Assembly (NCBI RefSeq): GCF_900090295.1
Contig: NZ_LT607753.1
Location: forward strand, 4,898,001 to 4,962,000
Reading direction: 5' to 3'
Length of the DNA stretch: 64,000 nt
DNA from: Micromonospora coxensis
Lineage (GTDB): Bacteria > Actinomycetota > Actinomycetes > Mycobacteriales > Micromonosporaceae
Shown here: one piece after another, positions 7,464 to 49,488 of the stretch
Layout of the letters: the number at the start of each line of letters is the position of its first letter
Numbering within the stretch: position 1 is the stretch's first letter
Program-made: the position numbers and the translations under genes
Notes under the pieces: generated by a model
Told to the model about the DNA's origin: nothing
Database searches by the model: none
The model's input: the letters and a program-made list of their open reading frames with translations, nothing else

Positions 7464-9132
<1,669 letters not shown>

Positions 9133-31517: not shown

Positions 31518-31656
31518 CGCAACCGCGGATTCGCGAGAGTCCCGGACGCTGGATTCTGGCGGAGTTCCGCTCCGCTCCTCCTCGGAGGGGCGGCAGATGA
31601 TCTCTGGTAGAGTGCAGCTTCCCCGCCCGCCAGGGTGGGGAAGCACGATGAGTTCT

Positions 31657-31729
31657 GGCCCCGTCGTCTAGCGGCCCAGGACGCCGCCCTCTCAAGGCGG
31701 TAGCGCCGGTTCGAATCCGGTCGGGGCTA
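31657..31729 (+). tRNA. tRNA-Glu (anticodon CTC), copy 1
   Basis: A 73-base cloverleaf. The acceptor stem GGCCCCG pairs with CGGGGCT, the anticodon stem CCGCC pairs with GGCGG around loop CTCTCAA (anticodon CTC at 31691-31693), and the T-loop is TTCGAAT. CCA is not encoded. A hairpin of CTTCCCC (31618) with GGGGAAG (31637) lies in its leader. Confidence 0.96.
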
Positions 31730-31740
31730 CAGCGCTGACA

Positions 31741-31766: not shown

Positions 31767-31882
31767 TTCCTCGTGTCTCGCGTCCGCCCGTGCGAGGGTG
31801 GCCCCCGCGTCGGCGCCGGAAAGCGGTGCCGCTAGACTACAACCGCACCGCTCGTCAGGGTGGTGATGCAGCAAAAGTGCCT

Positions 31883-31955
31883 GGCCCCGTCGTCTAGCGG
31901 CCCAGGACGCCGCCCTCTCAAGGCGGTAGCGCCGGTTCGAATCCGGTCGGGGCTA
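31883..31955 (+). tRNA. tRNA-Glu (anticodon CTC), copy 2
   Basis: A second 73-base tRNA-Glu, identical to copy 1 over its whole length but with different flanks and its own -10-like box (TAGACT, 31833-31838). It also has the CTC anticodon, so this is a recent duplication or gene conversion. GAA reading would depend on a TTC isoacceptor elsewhere. Confidence 0.96.
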
Positions 31956-31963
31956 CAGAGCAG

Positions 31964-31998
31964 AACGGCCCGTCTCGCTGAGCGCGAGGCGGGCCGTT
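31964..31998 (+). terminator. Terminator after tRNA-Glu copy 2
   Basis: A 15-base-pair stem with one wobble pair (31964-31978 with 31984-31998, loop TGAGC), 9 bases after the tRNA. Confidence 0.7.
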
Positions 31999-35350: not shown

Positions 35351-36031
35351 GTGAACAAGGCCGAGCTCATCGAGGCGCTCGCCGCTCGCCTGGGGGACCG
35401 GAAGACGGCGACGGCCGCGCTCGACGCGGTCCTCGCTGAGGTCCAGGCGGCGGTCACCAAGGGCGAGAAGGTGGCGATCACCGGTTTCGGAGCGTTCGAA
35501 AAGCGTGTCCGAGGGGCCCGAACAGCGCGCAACCCACGCACCGGTGAGGCGGTGAAGGTCAAGAAGACGTCCGTCCCGACCTTCCGTCCGGGCGCCGGAT
35601 TCAAGGAGATGGTGGCCAGCGGCAAGGTGCCGAAGGCCGCGGCCCCGGCGAAGAAGACCGCCACGGCGGCCGCCAAGACCACCGGGGCGAAGGCGACGGG
35701 CGCCAAGGCGACCGGGGCGAAGGCCACCGGGGCGAAGGCGACCGGGGCGAAGGCCACCGCCGCGAAGAAGACCACGGCCACCGCCGCCGCCAAGAAGACC
35801 ACGGCGGCCAAGGCCACCAAGGCCACCAAGACCACCGCGGCGAAGACCGCCACCAAGAAGGCCGCCCCGGCGACGAAGACCGCCGCGACGACCAAGGCCA
35901 CCGCGGCCACCAAGAAGACCGCCGCGGCGAAGAAGACCACGGCCACCAAGAGCGCCGCGGCGAAGAGCACCGCGGCCAAGAAGGCCCCGGCGAGGAAGGC
36001 GCCGGCCAAGAAGGCGGCCACCAAGCGCTGA
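35351..36031 (+). CDS. hupB: HU-type nucleoid protein with long lysine/alanine-rich tail (HupB type)
   Basis: The first 95 residues form a DNA-binding HU domain (NKAELIEALAARLGDRKTA, ITGFGAFEKRVR, ARNPRTGEAVKVKKTSVPTFRPG). The remaining 130 residues are almost only Lys, Ala and Thr with PAKK-type motifs, like mycobacterial HupB and Streptomyces HupS, whose tails bind DNA and are modified. The total is 226 residues. The tail contains five copies of TGAKA. GTG 35351 follows GGGAGGAAG, and in-frame sequence further upstream overlaps leuD and is not credible. Confidence 0.95.
   Translation: MNKAELIEALAARLGDRKTATAALDAVLAEVQAAVTKGEKVAITGFGAFEKRVRGARTARNPRTGEAVKVKKTSVPTFRPGAGFKEMVASGKVPKAAAPAKKTATAAAKTTGAKATGAKATGAKATGAKATGAKATAAKKTTATAAAKKTTAAKATKATKTTAAKTATKKAAPATKTAATTKATAATKKTAAAKKTTATKSAAAKSTAAKKAPARKAPAKKAATKR
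35681..35755 (+). repeat. 15-bp tandem repeat inside hupB
   Basis: Five in-frame copies of ACCGGGGCGAAGGCS (the second copy diverged) encode TGAKA five times in the basic tail. Because the unit is three times five bases, copy-number change would keep the frame. Confidence 0.9.
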
Positions 36032-40358: not shown

Positions 40359-41084
40359 GTGACACGGCGCAGGCTGGGCTTCTGGCAACGATTCGCCGTG
40401 GTGCTGGTCAAACCGGTGATGCTGCTCTGGACCCGGCGCACCTGGCGCGGCGCCGAGCAGTTGCGCCGCGAGGGCGGGATCATCATCGTGCCCAACCACC
40501 TCTCGCACGCCGATCCGCTGGTCTCCGCGCACTTCATCTACGAGGCCGGACGCTGGCCGCAGTACCTCGGCAAGGCCAGCGTGTTCCGGGTGCCGGTGAT
40601 CGGCTGGATCCTGCACCGCTGCAAGCAGATCCCGGTGGAGCGGGAGACCGTCCACGCGGTGAAGTCCCTGGACAAGCTGGTCGCCGCCCTCGACGCCGGT
40701 GGCGCGGTGGTGATCTACCCGGAGGGGACGATCACCCGCGAGCCGCAGCTGTGGCCGATGAAGGGCAAGACCGGGGCGGCCCGGCTGGCGCTGGCCACCG
40801 GCGCCCCGGTGGTCCCGGTGGCGATGTGGGGGCCGGAGAAGCTCTTCGACCCGCGTACCAACCGCTTCGGGCTGCGGCCCCGCACCCCGGTGACCGTGGT
40901 CGCCGGCCCGCCGGTGGACCTGAGCCGCTGGGCGGGCGCGACGCCGACCCGGGCCGTGCTGGAAGCGATGACCGACGAGATCATGCTGACCCTGCGTGAC
41001 CAGCTCGCCGAGATCCGGGGCGGCACGCCCCCTCCGCTGTGGGAACGTCCCGCCCGTCCGCGTACTCCCGAGGTGACCGAATGA
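40359..41084 (+). CDS. plsC: 1-acylglycerol-3-phosphate O-acyltransferase (PlsC type)
   Basis: A 241-residue membrane-associated acyltransferase that adds an acyl chain to lysophosphatidic acid in phospholipid synthesis. It has the catalytic NHLSHAD (HX4D) box and the PEGTITREP box, with the substrate-binding [13 protein letters not shown] between. GTG 40359 lies a few bases after GAGGAGG. Its stop overlaps a SERSE-type short frame that leads into gpsA, so plsC and gpsA are probably co-translated. Confidence 0.92.
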
Positions 41085-41110
41085 GCGAGCGCAGCGAGGT
41101 GACGGCATGA
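41081..41110 (+). CDS. SERSE-type short open frame between plsC and gpsA (9 aa)
   Basis: A nine-codon frame, MSERSEVTA. Its ATG overlaps the plsC stop (ATGA at 41081-41084) and its TGA overlaps the gpsA start (ATGA at 41107-41110). GAGGTGA lies four bases before both its own ATG and the gpsA ATG. The 30-base element is 26/30 identical to the one before thiL (49459-49488). It may be a translated coupling peptide or a portable ribosome-binding element. Confidence 0.45.
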
Positions 41111-42111
41111 GCCATGTGGCGGTGCTGGGGGCGGGTTCCTGGGGGACCGCCTTCGCGAAGATCCTCGCCGACGCCGGCCGGGACGTGACGATCTGGGCCC
41201 GCCGGGAGTCGGTCGCCGAGGCGATCTGCACCCACCGGCGCAACCCGGACTACCTGACCGACATGCGGCTGCCCGAGCGGGTCACCGCGACCGGCGACGC
41301 CGCCAAGGCGATCGCCGGCGCCGAGCTGGTGGTGCTGTCGGTGCCGTCGCAGACGCTGCGCGGCAACCTCGCCGACTGGGCCCCGCACCTCGCCCCCGAC
41401 TCGACCCTGGTCTCCCTGATGAAGGGGATCGAGCTGGGCACCACCCGGCGGATGAGCGAGGTGATCGTGGAGACGGCCCGGGTCACCCCGGACCGGGTGG
41501 TGGTGGTCTCCGGCCCCAACCTGGCCCCCGAGATCGCCGCCGAGCAGCCGGCCGCGACGGTGGTCGCCGGCACCGACGCCCGCCGGGCCGAGCTGGTGCA
41601 GCGCTCCATCCGCACCCCGTACTTCCGGCCGTACACCAACGACGACGTGATCGGCTGCGAGCTGGGCGGCGCGGTCAAGAACGTGATCGCCCTGGCGTAC
41701 GGGATCGCCACCGCGATGGGCTTCGGCGACAACACCCGGGCGATGCTGATGACCCGAGGGCTCGCCGAGACCGCCCGGCTGGGCGTGGCGCTCGGCGCCG
41801 ACCCGATCACCTTCGCCGGCCTGGCCGGCATGGGCGACCTCGTCGCGTCCTGCTCGTCGCCGCTGGCGCGCAACCGCACCTTCGGCGAGCACCTGGGCCG
41901 GGGGGAGACCCTGGAGCAGGCGCAGGCGGCCACCCGGCAGACCGCCGAGGGGGTGAAGAGCTGCCTGGCCATCCGGGACCTGGCCCGGGCGCACGGGGTG
42001 GAGATGCCGATCACCGAGCAGATCGAACGGATCTGCCACGAGGGAATGGACCCGAGACTCGCCGTGGACGCCCTGATGAGCCGTACCGCCAAGCCGGAGT
42101 CGTACGAGTGA
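41107..42111 (+). CDS. gpsA: Glycerol-3-phosphate dehydrogenase [NAD(P)+]
   Basis: GpsA makes sn-glycerol 3-phosphate for phospholipids. The 334-residue protein has the Rossmann motif [17 protein letters not shown] and the substrate/catalytic segments [33 protein letters not shown] and [12 protein letters not shown] (the former spans about residues 185-217). Start and end are both chained to short SERSE-type frames by four-base overlaps. Neighbouring plsC supports a lipid-synthesis unit. Confidence 0.97.
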
Positions 42112-42170
42112 GCGCGAGGAGTGAGCCGGTGTTGCGAGCCCCGCAGTCGCGAACCCAGGTGGCACCGTGA
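42108..42170 (+). CDS. SERSE-type short open frame after gpsA (20 aa)
   Basis: GTG 42108 overlaps the gpsA stop (GTGA) and opens a 20-codon frame, [20 protein letters not shown], whose TGA overlaps the next gene's GTG start (GTGA at 42167-42170). The tail APQSRTQ is echoed by the short frame before ddl (APQAARQSRTER). AGGTGG near its end can serve as the ribosome-binding site of the next gene. Confidence 0.45.
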
Positions 42171-43303
42171 GCGCGGACCAGTGGCACGACGGCACCCGCT
42201 GCGTGCACGCCGGCCTGCCCGAGCCCGCCCCGGGCGACCCGTTCCTGCCCGGGCCGGTCTTCGCCGCGCCGTACCACCTCGACCCGTGGCAGGGGCCGGC
42301 GGCGAGCCCGAACGGCTACGGCCGGCCGGACAACCCCACCCGCCGGCTGCTGGAGGCGGCCATCGGTGAGTTGGAGGGAGGCGACTGCCGGGTCTTCGCC
42401 AGCGGGCAGGCGGCCATCACCGGGCTGCTGCTGGCCCTGCTGCGCCCCGGCGACCGGGTGCTGCTCCCCGCCGACGGGTACTTCCCGGTCCGCGCCTTCG
42501 CCACGGCCACCCTGGAGGGCATCGGCGTCTCCGTCGGGTTCGTGCCGACCGCCGGGCCGTACCCGTCGTTCGACGGCGTCCGGCTGCTGATGCTGGAGAC
42601 CCCGGCGAACCCGGGGCTGGACGTGGCCGACGTCGCCGCGCTCGCCGCCGCGGCGCACGCCGCCGGCACGCTGGTCGTGGTCGACAACACCACCGCCACC
42701 CCGCTCGGGCAGCGTCCGCTGGACCTCGGCGCCGACCTGGTCGTCGCCTCCGGCACCAAGGCCCTGACCGGGCACTCCGACCTGCTGCTGGGCTACGTCG
42801 CGGCCCGCTCGGCGGAGCTGCTGGAGACGCTGACCGCCTGGCGTACCACCACGGGCGCGGTGACCGGGGCGTTCGACGCCTGGCTCGCCCACCGGTCGCT
42901 GGCCACGCTGGACCTGCGGCTGGCCCGGCAGTCGGCCAACGCGGCGGCCGTCGCCGAGCTGCTCGCCGGGCGCGCCGACGTGACCGGGCTGCGCTGGCCC
43001 GGCCGGCCGGAGGACCCGGCGTACCCGGTGGCGTCGGCGCAGATGCGGCGGATGCCCGGGGTGCTCTCCTTCGACCTCGGTGACGCCGCGCGGGTGTCCC
43101 GGTTCGTCGAGGCGTCCCGGCTGGTCGCCGCCGCCACCTCGTTCGGTGGCCTGCACACCACCGCCGACCGGCGGGCGCAGTGGGGCGACGACACCGCGCC
43201 CGGCTTCGTCCGGCTCTCCTGCGGGGTGGAGGACACCGCCGACCTGGTGGCCGACATCGCCGCCGCGCTGGACGCCGCCGGGCCGGCCGGTCCGCTATCG
43301 TGA
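42167..43303 (+). CDS. Trans-sulfuration pyridoxal-phosphate enzyme (cystathionine gamma-lyase-like)
   Basis: A 378-residue Cys/Met-metabolism enzyme. The cofactor lysine is in VASGTKALTGHSDLLLGYV, preceded by VVVDNTTATPLGQRPLDLGAD and ASGQAAITGLLLALL. The C-terminal VRLSCGVEDTADLVADI is typical. Cystathionine lyase or synthase and methionine gamma-lyase activities cannot be separated by eye. It lies on the gpsA transcript through a short overlapping frame, with no obvious metabolic link to it. Confidence 0.88.
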   Translation: MSADQWHDGTRCVHAGLPEPAPGDPFLPGPVFAAPYHLDPWQGPAASPNGYGRPDNPTRRLLEAAIGELEGGDCRVFASGQAAITGLLLALLRPGDRVLLPADGYFPVRAFATATLEGIGVSVGFVPTAGPYPSFDGVRLLMLETPANPGLDVADVAALAAAAHAAGTLVVVDNTTATPLGQRPLDLGADLVVASGTKALTGHSDLLLGYVAARSAELLETLTAWRTTTGAVTGAFDAWLAHRSLATLDLRLARQSANAAAVAELLAGRADVTGLRWPGRPEDPAYPVASAQMRRMPGVLSFDLGDAARVSRFVEASRLVAAATSFGGLHTTADRRAQWGDDTAPGFVRLSCGVEDTADLVADIAAALDAAGPAGPLS

Positions 43304-47102: not shown

Positions 47103-47147
47103 GTGAGCGCGCCGCAGGCGGCTCGGCAGTCGCGTACCGAGAGGTGA
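47103..47147 (+). CDS. SERSE-related short open frame before ddl (14 aa)
   Basis: GTG 47103 opens a 14-codon frame, MSAPQAARQSRTER, that stops four bases before the ddl start. TAAGGT (47090-47095) lies 7 bases before the GTG, so the short frame itself would be leaderless. Its last codons are the ribosome-binding site of ddl (GAGGTGA, then CCCA, then GTG). It shares APQ and SRT blocks with the frame after gpsA. Confidence 0.42.
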   Translation: MSAPQAARQSRTER

Positions 47148-47151
47148 CCCA

Positions 47152-48252
47152 GTGACCACCCCAGGCAAGACCCGCGTGGCGATCGTCTTCGGCGGCCGCA
47201 GCCCCGAGCACGGCATCTCCTGCGTCAGCGCCGGCAGCGTGCTCGCCGCGCTCGACCCGGACGAGTTCGAGGTGGTGCCGGTGGGCATCACCCGCCAGGG
47301 GCAGTGGGTTCTCGCCAGCGGCGACCCGAGCCGGCTCGCCATCGCCGACCGGAAGCTGCCGGAGATCACCGCCGGCTCCGGCGCCGAACTGGTCCTGCGC
47401 GCCGACCCCACCGCCGGTGGCCTGATGGTGCTCGACCCCGCCGAGGGCCCGCGCGCGATCGCCGACGTCGACGTGGTCTTCCCGGTGCTGCACGGCGCGT
47501 ACGGCGAGGACGGCACCATCCAGGGCATGCTGGAGATGGCCGACATCCCGTACGTCGGGGCGAACGTCTTCGCCTCCGCCGCGGCGATGGACAAGGAGTT
47601 CACCAAGAAGCTCTGCGCCGTCGAGGGCATCCCGGTCGGGCCGTACGCGGTGCTGCGCAACGGGATGACGCTCAGCGAGGAGGACAAGGAGCGCCTCGGC
47701 CTGCCGGTCTTCGTCAAGCCGTCCCGGGCCGGCTCGTCCTTCGGCATCACCAAGGTCGACGACTGGTCCCAGCTCGACGCCGCGGTCGCCACTGCCCGGG
47801 AGATCGACACCAAGGTGCTGGTCGAGGGCGCGATCGTCGGCCGGGAGATCGAGTGCGGCGTGCTGGAGGGCGAGGCCGGCGGCGCGCCCGAGGCGTCCGT
47901 GCTGGCCGAGGTGCGGGTCGTCTCCGGCCACGACTGGTACGACTTCGAGGCCAAGTACATCGACGACTCCTGCGAGTACGACATCCCGGCCACCCTGCCC
48001 GATCAGGTCACCCGCCGGGTCCAGGAGTACGCCACCCGCGCCTTCACCGCGCTGGACTGCTCCGGGCTGGCCCGGGTGGACTTCTTCGTCACGCCCGAGC
48101 TGGACGTCTACCTCAACGAGATCAACACGATGCCGGGCTTCACCCCGACCTCGATGTTCCCCCGGATGTGGGCGGCCTCCGGCCTGGAGTACCCGAAGCT
48201 GGTCAACCGCCTGATCCGCACCGCCCTGCACCACGACACCGGCCCCCGCTGA
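47152..48252 (+). CDS. ddl: D-alanine--D-alanine ligase
   Basis: Ddl makes the D-Ala-D-Ala dipeptide of peptidoglycan. The 366-residue ATP-grasp enzyme begins RVAIVFGGRSPEHGISCVSA. It shows HGAYGEDGTIQGMLEMADIPYVG, KPSRAGSSFGITKV, VEGAIVGREIECGVLEG, and the metal/ATP segment RVDFFVTPELDVYLNEINTMPGFTPTSMFP (about residues 307-337). No Phe-for-Tyr type active-site change suggestive of a D-Ala-D-Lac ligase was looked for quantitatively. GTG 47152 follows GAGGTGA. Confidence 0.96.
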   Translation: MTTPGKTRVAIVFGGRSPEHGISCVSAGSVLAALDPDEFEVVPVGITRQGQWVLASGDPSRLAIADRKLPEITAGSGAELVLRADPTAGGLMVLDPAEGPRAIADVDVVFPVLHGAYGEDGTIQGMLEMADIPYVGANVFASAAAMDKEFTKKLCAVEGIPVGPYAVLRNGMTLSEEDKERLGLPVFVKPSRAGSSFGITKVDDWSQLDAAVATAREIDTKVLVEGAIVGREIECGVLEGEAGGAPEASVLAEVRVVSGHDWYDFEAKYIDDSCEYDIPATLPDQVTRRVQEYATRAFTALDCSGLARVDFFVTPELDVYLNEINTMPGFTPTSMFPRMWAASGLEYPKLVNRLIRTALHHDTGPR

Positions 48253-48335: not shown

Positions 48336-48350
48336 TCAAGATCCGCACAC

Positions 48351-48402
48351 TTTCAGAGAAAGTGTGGCTGTTTCGCTCCGGATAGCCACATTTTCTCTGA
48401 AA
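48351..48402. repeat. REP-like inverted element between ddl and the DUF3515 gene
   Basis: Positions 48351-48369 and 48384-48402 form a 19-base-pair inverted repeat with one G-T pair and a 14-base loop. Each arm is itself close to a palindrome (ACTTTC, AGA, GAAAGT). At about half G+C it is the least GC-rich spot nearby. It could terminate both convergent genes, but the internal symmetry and flanking direct repeats look like a dispersed REP-type element. Confidence 0.7.
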
Positions 48403-48451
48403 GTGCAGCCGGCACGGTGCCCGCCGCCGGCGCGGTGGGAGTCGGCGGGGG

Positions 48452-49458: not shown

Positions 49459-49488
49459 ATGGACGAGCGCGGCGAGGGGACGGCATGA
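49459..49488 (+). CDS. SERSE-type short open frame before thiL (9 aa)
   Basis: A nine-codon frame, MDERGEGTA, whose TGA overlaps the thiL start (ATGA at 49485-49488). It is the same length as, and 26/30 identical to, the frame before gpsA, and likewise carries the purine-rich ribosome-binding site (GAGGGGA) four bases before the next ATG. A further SERSE-like beginning (GTGAGCGAGCAC) lies about 40 bases upstream. Confidence 0.42.
   Translation: MDERGEGTA

Follow-up and report, generated by a model that had tools for sequence, protein, structure and literature searches.

Short linker frames beside gpsA in Micromonospora coxensis are probably copies of two MIRU-like repeat families that preserve stop/start overlaps

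Introduction

In the 64,000-nucleotide stretch of the Micromonospora coxensis genome analysed here (the window; positions 4,898,001-4,962,000 of a single 6.77-Mb contig), gpsA is preceded and followed by very short open frames, each of which overlaps its neighbours by four bases that join a stop codon to a start codon. The locus raises the question of what such frames are and how they come to sit exactly on gene junctions. A preliminary description of the window had offered two answers, a dispersed element that preserves translational coupling or a family of translated micropeptides. Here we argue that the frames most probably belong to two families of MIRU-like interspersed repeats, short and non-autonomous, whose copies would form a coupling-preserving relay between the genes they separate.

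Results

Layout of the gpsA locus

Direct reading places plsC, a first linker, gpsA, a second linker and a trans-sulfuration gene in one chain joined via ATGA, ATGA, GTGA and GTGA, exact to the base as first described. The features are:

40359..41084, + strand: plsC-type acyltransferase (Pfam PF01553, sequence); its TGA stop lies within the ATGA at 41081-41084
41081..41110, + strand: 9-codon linker frame MSERSEVTA followed by a stop (sequence); the unit is 41081-41106 (26 nt)
41107..42111, + strand: gpsA (Pfam PF01210/PF07479); its start lies in the ATGA at 41107-41110, overlapping the linker stop
42108-42111, + strand: gpsA stop, within the GTGA that is the first codon region of the 20-codon linker frame
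42108..42170, + strand: 20-codon linker frame, beginning V(M); the unit, 42108-42166 (59 bp), is a standard type B
42167..43303, + strand: Cys/Met metabolism PLP enzyme (Pfam PF01053, Cys_Met_Meta_PP); its start lies in the GTGA at 42167-42170, over the linker stop
7464..7526, + strand: 20-codon leader; its stop lies in the ATGA of the next frame (called ilvN in the preliminary description)
47103..47155, + strand: degenerate linker before ddl, consisting of 14 codons, GTGA, 3 codons, GTGA, then ddl
49459..49488, + strand: second shortened type A-like linker, MDERGEGTA followed by a stop (pattern match, 1 mismatch); the stop lies in the ATGA of a 312-codon frame

The related short frames reported elsewhere in the window are thus present, at 7464, at 47103 (before ddl) and at 49459-49488. 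Part of the linker before ddl resembles type B by eye (GCAGTCGCG), and a Pfam match agrees with the call of Ddl further downstream. Using a crude gene caller, we found overlaps of the form DTGA, where D is mostly A or G, at 4/33 co-oriented adjacent gene pairs in the 64-kb window. The window also holds repeats of other kinds: a long near-perfect inverted repeat (CACTTTCAGAGAAAGTGTGGCT...AGCCACATTTTCTCTGAAAGTG) at 48348-48405, 3' of ddl, which is terminator-like or a mobile palindrome; two 84-nt copies at 31655-31738 and 31881-31964, 98% identical and resembling a duplicated tRNA gene; and Lys/Ala/Thr-rich tandem repeats at 35630-35990, with a period of about 15-18 nt.

Two repeat families

Both frames beside gpsA had been taken as one SERSE family. 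We rejected this, as types A and B are unlike in sequence and length, fold differently and do not share the same range; by sequence comparison, an intact type B follows gpsA, and what precedes it is a type A relic in shortened form. Full-length type A is 80 bp long, with the consensus MSERSERIIRLSAVVPHAGAERSEAAA (encoding MSERSER...AERSE), and carries GAGCGNAGCGAG near each end of its frame, 54 nt apart. The 26-nt unit in the window corresponds to type A without exactly the 54-nt interval that separates the two GAGCGNAGCGAG repeats, and we infer that it arose through deletion of this interval. The type B unit is 59 bp and consists of GTGAGCGCGAGGAGTGAGCCGG...GCGAGCCCCGCAGTCGCGAAC plus a tail, and the 20-codon frame of the window is a standard copy.

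Allowing ≤3 mismatches, the two family patterns matched 27 and 16 places in the genome, compared with 0 and 0 for the reversed controls. The bare motif GAGCGNAGCGAG gave 29 matches against 14 in its control and is weak evidence by itself. For type B, a 41-nt pattern (≤3 mismatches) returned 27 copies in the M. coxensis genome against 0 for its reverse, and these copies fall into 16 loci, frequently as tandem arrays with 59 or 60 bp spacing. All 16 map to the 1.10-5.90 Mb part of the 6.77-Mb contig, and both end regions are without any.

The two types differ in how far they reach. In a survey of 249 genomes of the order (33 of Micromonospora and 216 others), a 31-nt type B pattern with ≤1 mismatch was present in 33/33 genomes of the genus, 0/9 other members of the family and 0/207 of the remainder. 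The type A head (26-nt pattern, ≤1 mismatch) was found in 26/33 genomes of the genus plus six further ones, or 32/249, and its exact 21-nt form in 27/394 genomes and 13/137 genera of the class (control 0). A scan with the 21-nt head gave at least 120 stretches, of which 80 were listed with titles and 8 of these 80 are non-actinobacterial; among the matches listed are Nocardia, Aeromicrobium, Microbispora, Nonomuraea, Kitasatospora, Streptomyces, Kribbella, Catellatospora, Phytohabitans and Plantactinospora. One named Micromonospora record (L354) carries a 27-codon type A unit followed by a unit with a type B head, DTGA-chained, so that mixed arrays exist.

In non-actinobacteria, the same 21-nt head is preceded by C (CTGAGCGAGCG.AGCGAGCGAA) and lies away from start codons. 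The records concerned are metagenome-assembled genomes (MAGs) of Chloroflexi (L366), Terriglobia (L346) and Halobacteriales (L327), and two Acidobacteria (L356 and L373). The head in the Chloroflexi MAG lies inside a REP-like palindrome, and similar hairpin sequence thus occurs in unrelated phyla.

Linkers run into the downstream gene through DTGA overlaps

As read from the copies compared, a unit begins with DTGA, carries one open frame and ends right where the DTGA start of the following gene begins. Single units and tandems thus occupy start codons, in most cases codons that overlap an upstream stop, and all junctions stay stop/start overlaps. These overlaps were not imposed by the search, whose patterns left out both D and the tail.

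We followed 76 type-B arrays of 1-4 units, 16 of them from M. coxensis and 60 from seven other genomes. In 72 of the 76, DTGA overlaps connect the array to a long frame downstream (four of the 72 are in-frame fusions), and in 70/76 the frame reached is the one whose GC3 signal is best. Co-orientation holds for the downstream gene in 74/76 and for the upstream gene in 65/76, with 57 of those 65 stopping exactly in the element's GTGA, and the downstream genes belong to 59 families. The 5' boundary stays GTGA even where ATGA is the downstream start. In the frame control, 71/73 arrays pass compared with 9/73 in the third frame, which is the only valid shift for type B: a 2-nt deletion or 1-nt insertion gives an in-frame fusion that is also scored as reaching the gene (62/73). 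The proposal that the linkers carry the ribosome-binding site of the next gene holds in part: GGAG, GAGG, AAGG, AGGA or GGGG occurs in 64/76 type-B tails, an uncontrolled count, and the type B copy in the window itself has only AGGTGG.

Type A behaves in the same way. All 63/63 arrays chain by DTGA overlap, 60/63 of them in the best GC3 frame; the values are 47/49 and 46/49 for arrays from other families (L244, 1 of 50, was lost, with no match near the middle), and 68/69 and 64/69 for the usable arrays of named actinobacterial records among the matches listed (4 of 73 were set aside as cut off). The usable non-actinobacterial head matches among those listed (7, with 1 of 8 set aside as cut off) have an open frame in 1/7 cases and are in frame in 0/7. 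Linkage and fusion were separated for type A only. Linkage with -4 spacing in the right frame was seen in 61/63 arrays, in 41/49 from other families and in 58/68 from named records among the matches listed; in the same order, right-frame fusion accounts for 0 of 63, 6 of 49 and 6 of 68, and -4 linkage drops to 12/63, 4/49 and 13/68 after a one-base deletion and to 8/63, 4/49 and 4/68 after a two-base deletion. The 177 type A loci with a callable downstream frame lead into 150 families. These counts take copies as independent of phylogeny, and within-family frame conservation is partly common descent.

The last units of 59 type A arrays (4 of 63, L201, L207, L209 and L217, were left out with last units >96 nt) comprise 39 of 80 nt and 20 of 41 to 86 nt, and the overlap relation holds across many unit lengths. 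That 59/59 are 2 mod 3 long, and that 0/39 80-mers hold an internal stop, both follow from the use of the overlap chain to cut out the units and repeat what the chain had already given. The preliminary description had named copies at random positions, in both orientations and with broken frames as what would speak against a coupling element; across the 76 + 63 + 49 + 69 arrays this is not the pattern found. Chance would otherwise be a simple explanation in a GC-rich genome with many ATGA and GTGA junctions, as DTGA overlaps are common in bacteria and the excess of bare GAGCGNAGCGAG over its control is no more than two-fold. Set against this are repeat families with zero control matches and frame statistics far from those of the shifted controls, on which grounds we ruled chance out as next to impossible.

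A conserved frame with no sign of selection on its peptide

The frame being open from head to downstream start in 63/63 type A arrays would also be expected of a family of functional translated micropeptides (MSERSER...), the second answer offered at first. In 39 full-length type A units, entropies at codon positions 1, 2 and 3 are alike at 0.65, 0.78 and 0.70 bits, with no third-position excess of variation and hence no peptide-level conservation of the kind that marks such families. The bodies differ between families, large in-frame deletions are tolerated, and base 23 of the head, which covaries with the start codon (see below), is a second codon position (Ile/Thr) and so alters the amino acid. 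Stop-creating substitutions have little power here (2 possible transitions, 4 transversions, 1 observation). We rejected the micropeptide explanation, which we consider very improbable. To the extent that these comparisons reach, the frame is kept while the peptide bears no sign of selection, and the linker peptide itself is probably without function.

Filled and empty sites

Relatives have the same junctions without the unit. We searched the joined flanks of eight M. coxensis type-B loci (of ten prepared) in five relatives, and at 7/8 loci at least one relative has flanks that meet with nothing between them, immediately 5' of the DTG in a DTGA start. At locus L016, the relatives showed only a filled site, degenerate copies, or a site that is empty but for 3 additional nt. 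The inserts in M. coxensis measure 59, 60, 118, 119 or 177 bp. At 6 of 7 loci with an empty relative, the element's GTGA contains the stop of the upstream frame in M. coxensis. A unit can do without such an overlap, because at L017 the upstream gene ends in TAA a few bases 5' of the unit. Array copy number varies by species, with 2 copies at L017 and 6 at its orthologue L173 in genome G012.

At the focal locus, the overlap chain from plsC to gpsA is intact in 25/25 genomes of the genus (M. coxensis included), with inserts of nothing, 9, 14, 15+22, 24, 27 or 27+27 codons. The chain from gpsA to the next gene is intact in 22/25.

We also compared flanks with unit tails. In the 64 of 76 type-B arrays compared, agreement is 0.52 at -1 and 0.42 at -3, against 0.34 and 0.28 in shuffles, and the mean contiguous match is 1.42 against 0.60; in 52 type A units, agreement above shuffles is weak. 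This similarity is not enough to claim a 3-nt target duplication. Taken together, frames, orientation, empty sites and overlap chains give the proposed dispersed, coupling-preserving element good support as far as sequence goes.

Hairpins of type A appear to end on both DTGA sites

The type A head and tail appear to fold into hairpins that end on the DTGA sites at both boundaries, with base-pair covariation. Positions 1-23 of the head form a rod in which D1 pairs with Y23 and T2 with A22; it further contains two tandem G.A steps, pairs of the G-C and C-G type, and a GNA loop. Mini-hairpins of sequence d(GCGNAGC) have unusual stability. Among the matches listed, 247 distinct copies combine D and base 23 as A-T 110, G-C 88, A-C 29, G-T 4 and other 16, and the mutual information between the two is 0.443 bits compared with ≤0.051 at 15 other tested positions. 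Forty stretches whose titles are not shown (L376-L415) were counted in this covariation, in the 3' DTGA pairing below and in the last part of the focal-junction analysis; leaving them out, 202 copies among the matches listed give A-T 95, G-C 70, A-C 26, G-T 3 and other 8, with mutual information of 0.438 against ≤0.047 elsewhere. D was free in the search patterns, and base 23 was limited to C/T (one mismatch allowed) in the 26-nt pattern and free in the 21-nt searches. The pairing is not kept in Aeromicrobium-like genomes, in which base 23 is C in 16/16 copies and D is A in 7, G in 8 and C in 1.

In an alignment of 25 of the 39 80-mers, the 3' hairpin ends on the DTGA of the downstream gene. 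The structure collects 36 double-change cells in these 25 sequences compared with 8.1 in shuffles, and sliding it by ≤3 columns leaves 2-4 (0 at +3). D also covaries with column 51 at the 3' end. In RNA folds of the first 170 of 186 units (among the matches listed), the 3' DTGA is paired with a probability of 0.74, compared with 0.41 when the body is shuffled. Three full type A units gave z of -1.84 and -2.28, better than shuffles, and -0.21, not better; DNA-energy folding of two full units showed no excess over shuffles (z -0.41 and -0.63). The RNA folds of both window copies are no better than shuffles (z 1.00 and 0.68), and for this reason the shortened copy before gpsA falls outside the hairpin argument. 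In type B, the consensus fold pairs GTGA with an internal TCGC, and none of the 13 pairs covaries (0/13; both from 41 of 51 units). We looked for an Rfam family in 6 element loci and rejected the idea, with 0 matches above the gathering score.

Regulation and transposition

A hairpin that hides the downstream start, in a structure kept by double changes, would suit a set of regulatory uORFs, that is, leader cistrons that tune the downstream gene by attenuation or strict coupling and are selected site by site, not passive inserts. Also in keeping with this, species have either an A-T or a G-C version at the focal locus. Translationally coupled uORFs are likewise short frames that hand ribosomes on at ATGA or GTGA; the units here are dispersed repeats, and the coupled uORF cases known to us are locus-specific. 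Since the genes that follow these repeats are numerous and unrelated (59 and 150 families) and linkers are missing at orthologous junctions of relatives, spread fits better, and we regard site-by-site regulation as a minority possibility. The regulatory and spreading views may both hold together.

How would the units spread? Single-strand transposition of the IS200/IS605 or REP/RAYT kind would join hairpin ends to a DTGA paired with a guide inside the element, with a Y1 HUH transposase acting in trans. The guide/target pairing rule is known from IS608 work, and IS200/IS605-derived MITEs (PATEs) have hairpin ends beside a fixed short target. Points in its favour are the apparent DTGA ends of both type A hairpins, the covariation of D with base 23 in the head and with column 51 at the 3' end, and the folding of the type B GTGA onto its internal TCGC. 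As compared with IS200/IS605 MITEs, the units here have DTGA at both ends, and the cognate transposase is missing from the picture: PF01797 (Y1_Tnp) was not found in the M. coxensis genome, is present in 15/55 genomes tried, and was not found in high-copy genomes such as G205, G250, G005, G077, G568 and G513. In addition, a SERSE-like hairpin occurs in 0/12 fetched loci around Y1 genes. A resident Y1/RAYT mobiliser was rejected on the first and last of these results, and this route as a whole seems unlikely.

Discussion

Our preferred reading, a relay through MIRU-like linkers, would work as follows. A ribosome finishing the upstream gene would restart at the overlapping start codon, translate the linker, stop, and begin again at the gene that follows. 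Selection would remove changes that interrupt this relay. In type A, the 3' hairpin could keep the start and the ribosome-binding region of that gene masked until translation of the linker opens them, and the units would have spread by probably trans-acting machinery that favours DTGA junctions. It is possible, at a lower level of confidence than the relay itself, that the units are structured 'start-codon transposons', class-wide in Actinobacteria, whose hairpins pair with DTGA, choose the overlaps (A-type to ATGA, G-type to GTGA) and leave a locked portable cassette, mobilised by something other than a resident Y1 transposase.

MIRUs, the mycobacterial interspersed repetitive units, reportedly go back to Supply et al. 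1997. In the available excerpts of the sources, they are apparently mobile, insert at start codons and carry an internal ORF coupled to the gene with -4 spacing (PMC12548453), are 40-100 bp long with 41 locations in H37Rv, 12 of them variable (PMC2734929), and occur as 77- and 53-bp units in senX3-regX3 (PMC4213456). As these excerpts describe them, MIRUs are the closest known kind, being short, interspersed, often tandem, mobile-looking and inserted at start codons, and their 77/53 bp units and our 80/59 bp units are all 2 mod 3 in length. The present units are of comparable size and dispersal (59 bp with 27 copies at 16 loci, and 80 bp), lie at start codons in the orientation of the gene with an internal ORF coupled at -4, and form tandem arrays of variable copy number (2 at L017, 6 at L173, and 1-4 in the array set). 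Unlike MIRUs, they occupy other genera, fall into two sequence families (80 and 59 bp), include a type A head that is class-wide, and show covariation with a start-codon base. We call them MIRU-like, not MIRUs, as the likeness is one of layout and described features.

Other short repeats are less similar. REPs are very short imperfect palindromes with a conserved foot and are regarded as non-autonomous elements (PMC2817692). The REP/RAYT likeness consists in very short, non-autonomous repeats; the REP foot described there is of the GTAG/GTGG type and flanks RAYT genes in inverted orientation, whereas the foot here is DTGA, the units are co-oriented with genes and PF01797 was not found in the M. 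coxensis genome. The beta-proteobacterial repeat element (BRE) is about 90 bp, tandem, and differs in copy number between genomes; it is mostly intergenic with some copies within genes, and the excerpt of PMC3110155 describes no stop/start coupling. On that excerpt, BRE is similar in size to our units, and coupling is a feature of the latter.

The preliminary description knew of no described function and had missed MIRUs: judging from the excerpt of PMC12548453, the kind of element, together with the idea of insertion and coupling, is already known from mycobacteria. Among the literature matches listed, we noted no coupled elements of this sort outside mycobacteria, which is no proof of absence; the literal element sequences had no match in the searched literature, and MSERSER-type strings had unrelated matches only. 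New here are the two families outside mycobacteria, the class-wide spread and the covariation of the first base of the start codon with type A base 23.

For annotation, linkers fused in frame to the downstream gene (6/49 arrays, and 6/68 among the matches listed) would look like N-terminal MSERSER extensions. The pairing between the start codon and the unit may serve RNA-level coupling, DNA-level target choice, or both, and the covariation behind it makes two questions testable, namely how far actinobacterial operons depend on a stop-to-start hand-over and how such tiny elements find overlaps. The MIRU idea is thereby extended from mycobacteria to several actinobacterial families, with a structure that can be tested.
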